Shown here one piece after another: positions 7,626-19,665 of a DNA stretch of 25,097 nt. The DNA comes from a virus. Both the position numbers and the translations under genes were made by a program. The first letter of the stretch is position 1, and the number at the start of each line of letters is the position of its first letter. The DNA lies in IMG/VR virus record IMGVR_UViG_3300010885_050290, positions 1 to 25,097 of that record. The stretch is one strand, 5' to 3'. The notes under the pieces were generated by a model. The model was not told where the DNA came from. It searched no databases and saw nothing but the letters and a program-made list of their open reading frames with translations.

Positions 7626-8366
7626 ATGAATCTCACAGTAAACGATAGATATGTAGGGCTACGTTGCAAAGTTTGTAACGGATCTACTTCTATTTTAGGT
7701 GTTTGTGATTTTAATAAAACATGTGAAGAAGAAAAACAAATCTTAATATTTGATTGGATAGGACATCCTATCTATTATCATCAATGTGACGATTGCAGGT
7801 TTATTTTTACAATTGACTTAGATCATTGGACTAAAGATGATTTCATTTCAAATGTTTATAATGACGAATACATTAAAGTAGATCCAGAATATGCAGGTGA
7901 TAGACCTAAAAAATGTATCAATTGGTTTAGTCCGATGCTTGCAGGCGATAAAACAATTTCAGTTCTAGATTATGGTGCAGGTAACGACCTATTCAGTAAA
8001 GAACTTAGAAATTCTGGGTACAATGCAGTAGGTTGGGATACTATGTGGCAAACCGAACCAACGTTTGATAAAACAAAAAAGTTTGATGTTGTAACAGCAT
8101 TTGAAGTATTAGAACATACTCCCACTCCTTGGGAAACAATGACCGAACTATTAGAGTTTGTTAATCCTCAGTCAGGACAAATTGTATTCAGTACATTAGT
8201 TAATGATATTATAGGAGAGCAAGGAGCATATTATTGGTATCTTGCTCCTAGAAATGGACATGTATGTATGCATTCTCAACGAAGTTTAGAACTTATGTTT
8301 GACAAAGTAGGCATGACCATACAAAGTTTTAGTCCAAGTCAGCATGTTGCTAGTTGGAAAGAATAA
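7626..8366 (+). CDS. SAM-dependent methyltransferase with N-terminal zinc ribbon
   Basis: A 246-residue class I methyltransferase. A probable zinc ribbon comes first: C14-x-x-C17 and C54-x-x-C57, with further cysteines at 27 and 33. The SAM-binding motif I is VLDYGAGN (from residue 113), followed by the acidic end of motif II (GWD) and the post-motif FDVVTAFEVLEHTPTP, typical of the Methyltransf_23 family often seen in sugar or nucleotide tailoring. The substrate cannot be read; small-molecule/sugar, peptide or nucleic-acid methylation are all open. There is no DNA-methylase NPPY/DPPY motif, so DNA base methylation is less likely. It abuts the Hc1-like gene and its stop overlaps the next start by one base. 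Confidence 0.8.
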   Translation: MNLTVNDRYVGLRCKVCNGSTSILGVCDFNKTCEEEKQILIFDWIGHPIYYHQCDDCRFIFTIDLDHWTKDDFISNVYNDEYIKVDPEYAGDRPKKCINWFSPMLAGDKTISVLDYGAGNDLFSKELRNSGYNAVGWDTMWQTEPTFDKTKKFDVVTAFEVLEHTPTPWETMTELLEFVNPQSGQIVFSTLVNDIIGEQGAYYWYLAPRNGHVCMHSQRSLELMFDKVGMTIQSFSPSQHVASWKE

Positions 8367-8794
8367 TGACATGGTACCATAAAGGTTCTATAATTACAGA
8401 ATTGCCCGAAGATTGCGTGGGATTTGTTTATCTTATTTCATGTAATCTAACAGGCAGGATGTATATTGGTAAAAAGTTAGCAAAATTTAGTAAAACGACC
8501 TACAAGACTGTAAAGTTGAAGAACGGCACCAAGAAGAAAAAGAAGATCAGAAGCAAAATAGACAGCGACTGGCAAGAATATTATGGCTCAAACATAGAAC
8601 TTAACAAAGATGTTGAGTTACACGGCAAAGAAAACTTCACAAGAGAAATATTACATTATTGTAAAAGCAAAGCAGAAACATCGTACATTGAGGCCCGTGA
8701 ACAATTCGACCGCAAAGTATTAGAATCAAAAGAATATTATAACGGACAAATATCTGTCCGTGTCCATGGCTCACACATTATAAACAAAATTTAA
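8366..8794 (+). CDS. SegE-type GIY-YIG homing-like endonuclease
   Basis: A 142-residue protein with a GIY-YIG-type nuclease core: GFVYLISC (the GIY strand) and MYIGKK (the YIG strand). A lysine-rich stretch then precedes DWQEYYGSN, followed by HGKENFTREIL and an EAREQF helix that would supply the metal-binding Glu. This layout matches the SegE-like branch of free-standing T4 nucleases. The ATG at 8366 overlaps the methyltransferase stop (TAATG); a TTG at 8354 is a poorer choice. Codon choice in the middle (many AAG, ATC, AGC, GGC) differs from neighbours that prefer AAA and ATT, suggesting separate acquisition. It is shorter than T4 SegE (about 205 residues) but the catalytic core appears complete. 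Such genes spread by cutting related genomes that lack them. Confidence 0.8.
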   Translation: MTWYHKGSIITELPEDCVGFVYLISCNLTGRMYIGKKLAKFSKTTYKTVKLKNGTKKKKKIRSKIDSDWQEYYGSNIELNKDVELHGKENFTREILHYCKSKAETSYIEAREQFDRKVLESKEYYNGQISVRVHGSHIINKI

Positions 8795-9225
8795 TCGGTT
8801 CACAGCTCGCACCTGCTAATTTCGGGTGCCCGTATACCTGGATCTAGGATCACAGGGAGGGAAATCTCTTGCCGATAAGAGTGCTCATCTACTACCCGAA
8901 AGGATGAAGATCGTAAAATGCTTACGGTTTGGATGTTTGAAGATAAAGAATAAGCAAAAAGAAGGGATAGTATTCCCTACGTTTACAAATATGTTAGTGT
9001 ATATTTGTAAGCTGCCGCTGGATAAAGACGCTGCTCGTGGTACAGGCCAACCGCCACTGTAATGCAGTAACACTAAGTGACATATGTTCGACTCGAATAA
9101 TGTTTCTTTGCCCTGCTCGGGCAAAGTGTGACTGAACGATCTGAATAATATTATATCATCTTCGATGAGAAACAATGCTTCAAGCGATAGCGTAGAAGCA
9201 AATGAGCGTTAGCTCATTTCATATC
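8795..9225 (+). ncRNA. Gene-free, hairpin-rich region; candidate structured RNA
   Basis: This 430-base stretch has no credible gene: the two short frames in it show no family features and no ribosome sites. My hand count gives about 42% GC, clearly above its surroundings. It folds into a series of local hairpins: 8866-8870 with 8877-8881; 8885-8889 with 8903-8907; CGTAA/TTACG around 8912-8925; AGGGA/TCCCT around 8963-8978; a ten-pair stem about 8983-9010; nested CTGC/GCAG and GTGG/CCAC at 9031-9067; an eight-pair stem 9106-9113 with 9119-9126; 9156-9160 with 9164-9168; 9176-9181 with 9195-9200; and an eight-pair stem 9200-9207 with 9212-9219. It is not recognisable as tRNA, tmRNA, RNase P RNA or a group I/II intron. 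The strand is assumed from the upstream operon. Confidence 0.45.
9200..9219. terminator. Perfect hairpin between convergent operons, possible bidirectional terminator
   Basis: AAATGAGC (9200-9207), loop GTTA, GCTCATTT (9212-9219) form an eight-pair perfect stem placed between the plus-strand endonuclease operon and the end of the minus-strand operon (stop at 9232). The flanking T-run is short on both strands, so termination strength is uncertain. Confidence 0.4.
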
Positions 9226-9231
9226 AATAGG

Positions 9232-18651: not shown

Positions 18652-18659
18652 GTTAAATA
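18652..18659 (+). promoter_or_regulatory. Late promoter box GTTAAATA
   Basis: GTTAAATA begins directly at the end of the terminator T-run. A start near 18665 would give a leader of about 65 bases to the ATG at 18730, which has AAGGAG upstream. Confidence 0.5.
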
Positions 18660-18729
18660 TAGTGTCTAGATTATTATGCGGTTCCCGCCGCGTAGAGCCT
18701 AGAACGCTCATAACATCAAGGAGAAACAA

Positions 18730-19665
18730 ATGGGACGTCCAATTAATAAAAAGTATTTCGGAAATACAAACGCAGGCTCTGCAAGTACATCATCTGATAA
18801 CGGTATCGGCGGTGAAGGTATTTCGAGCATATCAATTTCAAACAGTGGTACACTATATTCACAAGGAATAACTGCTACCATTTCAGCGCCACAACTCCCA
18901 ACAGGTGTTCGTGCATTAGTAACTCCAATTGTTCAAGCAACTGGTGCATTAGCTGGCCAAATAACAGGATTTAGCATTTCAGAACGAGGATCTGGTTATA
19001 CAAGTGCATCAATTACAATAACAACTGCTACTGCTGTAACATCAGCTTCCACTGGTACAAGTGGTGTTGCCACTATCTATCCAGCTAGCACAACAGGCAT
19101 TTATGTAGGCATGAAAGTAATTGGTGCTAATATCAGTTCTAGTTCTACATATGTTACTGGGGTAACAAACGGTGCAGTTGGATTAACATGGGTTAATGCA
19201 GGTACGGTTAATGCTTCAATTAATTTTGTTAGTGTAGGTTCTGGTTTTGCAGGCACAGTTAGTTTACAAAGTGTAAGACAAAATGCTATTGATTTCTTAG
19301 CATGGGTACCTATTGCAACTGGCGGTTCATTGAATACAGGCGGAAGTGCTGTATTAGGTGATATTGTTAAACAACAAGGTACAAGACGTTATTATGTAAA
19401 AACTGCTCAAGGATACGGAGTATGTTCTTTAACTTCTAGTACTGTTGTTAGAGGAACACTGAGCATTATTGCATCTGACTGGAATGGTAACACATATTGG
19501 GTTACTAGATTAGAAAGTCGTAAAGCACGTCTATGGCGCAAAACACAAAATGGTGCAAGTGCTTGGGTATATGCATCTGGTGATTTAGCTAGATGGTCAT
19601 TAACTGCTGCTACAGGAACTAACAAAACAGTTATTGGCACATTGGTTAATATTCCTAGCGTATAA
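18730..19665 (+). CDS. Virion surface/structural protein, MGRPINKKYFG type
   Basis: A 311-residue protein with the start MGRPINKKYFGNTNAG, a phrase shared by structural proteins of marine T4-like phages. The middle is Ser/Thr/Gly-rich beta sequence with 'ISERGSGYTSASITI' and 'SVGSGFAGTVSL' repeats as found in phage decoration and fibre proteins. The end (GDIVKQQGTRRYYVKTAQG, then RKARLWRKTQNGASAWVYA) looks like a compact beta domain. It stands as its own unit between two strong terminators, just after the capsid gene, which suggests high expression and a capsid-decoration or tail-surface role. The function is not recognised. Confidence 0.7.
   Translation: MGRPINKKYFGNTNAGSASTSSDNGIGGEGISSISISNSGTLYSQGITATISAPQLPTGVRALVTPIVQATGALAGQITGFSISERGSGYTSASITITTATAVTSASTGTSGVATIYPASTTGIYVGMKVIGANISSSSTYVTGVTNGAVGLTWVNAGTVNASINFVSVGSGFAGTVSLQSVRQNAIDFLAWVPIATGGSLNTGGSAVLGDIVKQQGTRRYYVKTAQGYGVCSLTSSTVVRGTLSIIASDWNGNTYWVTRLESRKARLWRKTQNGASAWVYASGDLARWSLTAATGTNKTVIGTLVNIPSV

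Follow-up and report, generated by a model that had tools for sequence, protein, structure and literature searches.

Positions 8795-9222 of the viral record IMGVR_UViG_3300010885_050290 are one conserved structured RNA of about 430 nucleotides (nt), the parts of which are tied together by pseudoknots. The whole stretch of DNA analysed, positions 1 to 25,097 of that record (25,097 nt), is called the window below; the endonuclease gene and the parts of the RNA lie on its + strand. The RNA stands directly behind a gene for a GIY-YIG endonuclease. Conservation stops at the stop codon of this gene on one side and at a 3' hairpin on the other, and in the homologue alignments it runs through the entire region between them. 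The RNA, called class A hereafter, contains 89 base pairs in 18 helices. A reading made from the letters of the DNA (the sequence-only reading) had proposed a structured RNA in a gene-free, hairpin-rich region of raised guanine-plus-cytosine (GC) content behind such an endonuclease gene, and all of this was borne out. No gene lies within 8795-9231. The GC content of 8795-9231 is 42.7%, against 34.5% in the GIY-YIG gene, 33.8% in the gene before it, 31.2% downstream and 35.9% in the whole window. The fold energy of the whole region on this strand beats 100 of 100 dinucleotide shuffles (z = -3.4), and folding of 8939-9231 gave a z of -4.2 against 200 shuffles. The end proposed earlier, 9225, was near; the last hairpin stops at about 9219.

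The structure is strongly supported by base-pair covariation, the decisive test named with the sequence-only reading. The structure alignment comprised 41 full-length homologues; mutual information was calculated with 119 sequences and the 3' core was analysed with 67. In the structure alignment, 92.0% of the cells are paired, and double changes are observed at 54 pairs. The covariation score was 0.347, as compared with 0.157 +/- 0.005 upon shuffling and at most 0.083 with slid partners; since the structure was drawn from the same data, the slid control is somewhat favourable to the structure, but the margin is nonetheless very large. For the 3' core, the score was 0.420, as compared with 0.168 (shuffled) and at most 0.094 (slid). 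Nearly every top mutual-information position is a standard pair. Furthermore, the length changes among homologues fall in loops.

Five of the helices are pseudoknots, at least four of which are well supported, whereas the fifth is weaker. The P0 pseudoknot (helix 1; 8795-8799/8871-8875) places its 3' strand inside hairpin P3, and is 96.8% paired with double changes at three of five pairs. A short pseudoknot with the loop of hairpin P1 (helix 2; 8804-8806/8815-8817) is 90.2% paired, and two of its pairs are double-changed. The 7-bp pseudoknot formed from the loop of P8 (helix 14; 8994-9000/9070-9076) is 96.8% paired, with double changes at all seven pairs. Another pseudoknot (9017-9021/9047-9051) crosses the stems 9030-9034/9064-9068 and 9037-9041/9053-9057; in these three helices (helices 15-17; 9017-9068), 95.1%, 97.6% and 100% of the cells are paired. 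The weaker one involves the loop of P6 (helix 11; 8920-8922/8953-8955): it is 66.7% paired, with double changes at all three pairs. Among the other helices, stem P4 (helix 7; 8886-8891/8930-8935), which encloses P5 and P6, is 100% paired with double changes at four of six pairs, and hairpin P8 (helix 13; 8981-9012) is 93.1% paired with double changes at all of its 12 pairs. Hairpin P11 (helix 18; 9106-9126) is 87.8% paired in a part where the alignment is loose. The RNA ends with two hairpins (9176-9219), the last of which is terminator-like; covarying columns are found here at 9176-9181/9195-9200.

A cmscan search against Rfam, which had been suggested as a check, matched the first third of the region to RF01718 (Polynucleobacter-1; 8804-8938). 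The match spans the entire model (1-141) with 104.9 bits, far above the gathering cut-off of 37 (E value of 4.5e-22 for the window and 8.6e-24 for the region). No Rfam family covers 8939-9225 in this search; no other Rfam family, transfer RNA (tRNA) or transfer-messenger RNA was found in the region, and there are no tRNAs in the window. The RNA had been taken to belong to an orphan class. This is true only in part because 8804-8938 is RF01718; the remaining two thirds are uncatalogued. The entry of about 141 nt is a fragment, the 5' third of an RNA three times longer, in which conservation and pairing extend from 8795 to about 9200. The entry lacks the 5' strand of P0 (8795-8799), which falls outside the model, and the 3' two thirds. 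The RF01718-type RNA is viral here. In the literature searched, no paper other than PMC2864571 concerns the RNA that contains Polynucleobacter-1.

The 3' two thirds carry two 7-base direct repeats, 48 bases apart in the window, in what is called the 3' module. M1 (9095-9101) is GAATAAT after CTC and M2 (9143-9149) is GAATAAT after TCT, with hairpin P11 between them. The same 7-mer is present at M1 and M2 across loci: 160 of 161 loci, among which ten variants occur, have two identical copies, and so have 131 of the 132 non-redundant class A RNAs. On a tree of these 132 RNAs, built without the repeat region, the two repeats require 44 and 43 changes, made by both copies together. Because the flanking CTC and TCT stay different, it is unlikely that one repeat was simply copied onto the other. 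An antiparallel symmetric loop formed by M1 and M2 was set aside because identity is not demanded by such a loop. The simplest reading of the identity is that both repeats might be recognized by one shared partner. It should be mentioned that a second, weaker covariation of the identity type (82%) was observed between positions 9024 and 9123. The strands there may compete for 9106-9109, and such alternative pairing may be a sign of a conformational switch.

Two search patterns, one for the known motif and one for the uncatalogued 3' part, each found at least 100 IMG/VR contigs; the set for the known motif includes chance matches, and at least 88 places passed a second motif check. The RNA is single-copy in all nine contigs of 113-345 kb. 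To avoid searches with the RNA itself, relatives were also recruited through a baseplate protein alignment. In most of these relatives a model of the 3' part detects the RNA where it is expected and on the expected strand, with scores from 193 down to about 15 bits. The collection of 84,980 bacterial and archaeal genomes gave four matches to the core pattern, which is about the chance level. By its major capsid protein, which is up to 69% similar, the window phage groups with large T4-like phages, among them Vibrio phage 2.275.O, PA5oct and GAP32. The carriers of the RNA are a group of large aquatic phages of the T4-like kind, probably jumbo phages. No copy of the RNA was found in named phages by blastn, and 11 phage genomes have no detectable RNA, including those nearest in capsid (Vibrio 2.275, Phosso, PA5oct, GAP32 and CBB).

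The upstream gene (8366-8794) encodes a SegE-type GIY-YIG endonuclease (PF19835, E value of 1e-31), and its start overlaps the stop of a methyltransferase gene (7626-8366). The profile match covers all 123 positions. The active-site columns V25, Y26, Y37, G39, E113 and N130 (alignment numbering) are invariant in 116 of 116 homologues. The AlphaFold model is a confident single domain (predicted local distance difference test score of 94.7), and no significant match was obtained when the PDB was searched for similar folds with this model. The enzyme consists of hardly more than a catalytic domain with a very basic stretch. About 180 loci have a gene of this type whose end is at most about 50 nt away from the start of the RNA. 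Of the 13 loci with no GIY-YIG gene nearby, most end near the contig edge or are chance matches, and in a few the gene is more distant. The order is gp47, gp46, small genes, the GIY-YIG gene, the RNA, a variable gene, the baseplate gene and the portal gene. Comparison of 83 non-redundant loci shows an island of similarity that reaches from about -420 to +430 relative to the stop codon of the nuclease, and there is almost none just outside. The nuclease and an RNA are present in all 55 baseplate-recruited loci that reach the site.

At this slot, mutually exclusive RNA classes were observed: class A, class B, which is larger and absent from Rfam, and the intermediate class C. Among the 55 loci, 30 are A, 21 are B (one assigned by eye) and four are C. 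The classes share the 3' module, and M1 equals M2 in all 53 scored loci of the baseplate-recruited set, over A, B and C. Classes B and C also look noncoding. RNAalifold gave weak covariation for class B (20 pairs, three with double changes), so that the case for this class is made by conservation and by a few stems that covary. The class switches 10-12 times on the nuclease and baseplate trees. In closely related pairs of loci, identity continues as far as the nuclease stop codon, is lost in the RNA and returns in the 3' hairpins. A class B locus (L287) and a class A locus (L292) are one such pair: they are 90% identical until three bases beyond the end of the nuclease match, lose similarity through the RNA and regain it at the terminal hairpins. 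In six class B loci (L302, L304, L291, L297, L323 and L335), an extra small gene lies between the nuclease and the RNA; its protein carries the pattern ..LGIH..HNW.. and a CxxC pair.

Pairwise distances of the class A RNAs were compared with those of neighbouring proteins. The RNA distances correlate with those of gp46 (0.52) and the baseplate protein (0.45), and for the nuclease the values are 0.22 over 113 loci and 0.28 over 84 loci. Given gp46, the partial correlation between RNA and nuclease was 0.04; given the baseplate protein, it was 0.19. The behaviour of the RNA is mainly that of a phage gene. Some weak association with the nuclease persists, because the value of 0.19 exceeds all of 500 permutations. 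The sequence-only reading had suggested that the RNA might be cargo or a target of the nuclease. The gene and the RNA do form one conserved island and are always together; but the RNA is not simply nuclease cargo, because its divergence tracks the phage backbone. Such divergence also argues against a pair of guide RNA and nuclease, and in favour of a phage-owned RNA in a slot that stays exchangeable through a homing-type endonuclease.

The explanation favoured here, which falls a little short of an even chance, is that this is a large noncoding RNA of the phage core that acts in trans, docks two copies of one partner through its paired repeats and occupies a slot exchanged via a homing nuclease. 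The RNA would be transcribed together with the nuclease gene, ending at the terminal hairpin, and would act in trans. Its changeable 5' domains would fold as a scaffold, and M1 and M2 would be two displays of a single tag, both of which could be bound by one partner, either a second RNA or a dimer of a phage protein. The GIY-YIG enzyme would act as a homing endonuclease of the free-standing kind; by cutting relatives in or close to the slot, it would swap RNA versions while the slot stays occupied. Exchange at the site is seen; cleavage of relatives and preferential inheritance would be expected of a homing endonuclease. Placing the RNA in a slot opened by homing would explain the fixed place, the swapped classes and the separate histories. 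In T4, free-standing GIY-YIG genes drive the inheritance of neighbouring regions, as SegB does for the tRNA region (PMC2988022). In addition, borders of genetic exchange between phages are reported to carry nuclease genes (PMC10448857). The window nuclease shares PF19835 with SegE and SegB of T4, and all are encoded by a lone nuclease gene in a slot that can be exchanged; RNA genes adjoin SegB as well. SegE differs in its target, uvsW, and in its position between inh and uvsW, and no such RNA has been reported there (PMC2988022).

Several observations weigh against this explanation. Mutual-information scans gave no third covarying column that could be a partner of M1 and M2 inside the RNA, and complements of the repeats are not enriched within the 1.5 kb flanks as compared with swapped labels. 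Covariation of the repeats with nuclease residues is weak, and mostly reflects a linked C-terminus and other clade-marking sites. The trees were quick ones, and the counts of changes may be inflated by tree error. In addition, no relative lacks the nuclease, although some would be expected to do so if the endonuclease were selfish. The absence of a phage without the nuclease hints at a real function of the pair, and a functional link, up to a ribonucleoprotein, is kept as a rival.

Among the alternatives, it is unlikely that the RNA is the 3' untranslated region of the nuclease mRNA and controls the stability, translation or processing of this message in cis. The RNA abuts the nuclease gene directly with no late promoter between them, and T4 endonuclease messages are controlled by RNA structure (PMC2988022). 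Of about 230 loci, 86 have the T4-type late promoter TATAAATA immediately behind the RNA, and the 1.2 kb that precede this point contain none; the window has no exact copy of it. However, the structure far exceeds known controls of this kind, its divergence tracks the backbone rather than the nuclease, and several loci have another gene between the nuclease and the RNA.

Slightly less probable is that the RNA is a cofactor of the adjacent nuclease, like the OMEGA RNAs of IscB and TnpB, with M1/M2 or another segment picking the target. The constant adjacency on the same strand, with the nuclease stop codon at the RNA start, the single conserved island, and an enzyme with barely more than a catalytic domain and a very basic stretch would fit this model. 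It is opposed by the difference of RNA class on nearly the same nuclease in L287 and L292 (90% identical gene DNA), by the partial correlation of 0.04 given gp46, and by related SegE-type genes in Melnitz and phiN3 with only short gaps behind them. Nor does any hypervariable guide-like stretch longer than 7 nt stand out in the alignment: M1 and M2 alone vary as units, and no target was found within 1.5 kb. HEARO and OMEGA RNAs (IscB, IsrB) are likewise structured RNAs permanently beside a nuclease gene. They differ from the phage RNA in that they precede the gene, whereas the phage RNA follows it; the nuclease here is of the GIY-YIG type; no HEARO or OMEGA model matched at E values up to 5; and the phage RNA and its nuclease do not diverge jointly, classes being swapped on one nuclease background. 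It seems rather improbable that a GIY-YIG nuclease depends here on a large exchangeable RNA, the concerted repeats of which set its specificity. If true, this would be the first case of a GIY-YIG enzyme at the heart of an RNA-dependent system.

That the RNA regulates the gene downstream, as a riboswitch or otherwise, is very unlikely. Polynucleobacter-1 does bear the marks 'y y ?' in Table 1 of PMC2864571. The gene after the RNA, however, belongs to many families across loci and is on the opposite strand in the window, and the terminator-like hairpin, often with a late promoter, stands between it and the RNA. The three marks are presumably ratings as RNA, cis-regulation and switch. Still more remote is a group I intron or another self-splicing element with its homing endonuclease. 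A homing-type nuclease does adjoin a pseudoknotted RNA; yet no Rfam intron model matched at E values up to 5, the helix order is unlike the P3-P7-P8 layout of group I, and the RNA runs from the stop codon to the terminal hairpin with no exons seen. An eroded protein gene, the outcome that the sequence-only reading had set against its own proposal, can be dismissed almost entirely: open reading frames of 78 and 96 codons cross the region, but 89 pairs are covarying or conserved, length changes fall in loops, and classes B and C at the same site also look noncoding.

The RNA resembles GOLLD and ROOL in being large, phage-borne and rich in pseudoknots, and GOLLD in its size, its phage origin and the combination of a conserved 3' part with a changeable 5' part (GOLLD: PMC12286853). 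It matches neither Rfam model, and its constant neighbour is the GIY-YIG gene, with no tRNAs in the window. The formation of homo-oligomeric cages is a further mark of GOLLD and ROOL.

Other noncoding-looking stretches were observed in the slot between gp46 and the baseplate gene. In Rak2-like jumbo phages, the slot holds an apparently noncoding stretch of 800 nt (GAP32, L246, 2988-3793), which 31 phage records share in conserved form; GAP32 has about five copies of it, and it has no Rfam or tRNA match. GAP32 also has a motif like M in single copy, which is not taken as homology. In PA5oct-like Pseudomonas phages (L240, 1985-3330), the slot is a 1.3-kb stretch in which only very small open reading frames are annotated; parts of this stretch are found again at two further sites of the genome. 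The gene after the RNA (L013, L020, L326 and others) often begins with MxIxxLLxE-like residues, which presumably resemble the capsid-targeting signals of T4 internal head proteins. A second orphan RNA of the window, freshwater-2 (RF02980, 56.5 bits), lies at 18656-18732, between the major capsid gene and the gene that follows. The gene-poor appearance of the window ends is due to genes that run off and not to real gaps.

An orphan motif of 141 nt, listed in 2010, has thus become a complete RNA of about 430 nt with a structure, a place, relatives and a partner gene, and an RNA defined in this way makes its function testable. The concerted double repeat, with its approximately 43 joint changes, is an unusual evolutionary signal and points to a specific partner. 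Furthermore, three classes swapped at one site beside a nuclease are a natural experiment on the exchange of RNA genes among phages.
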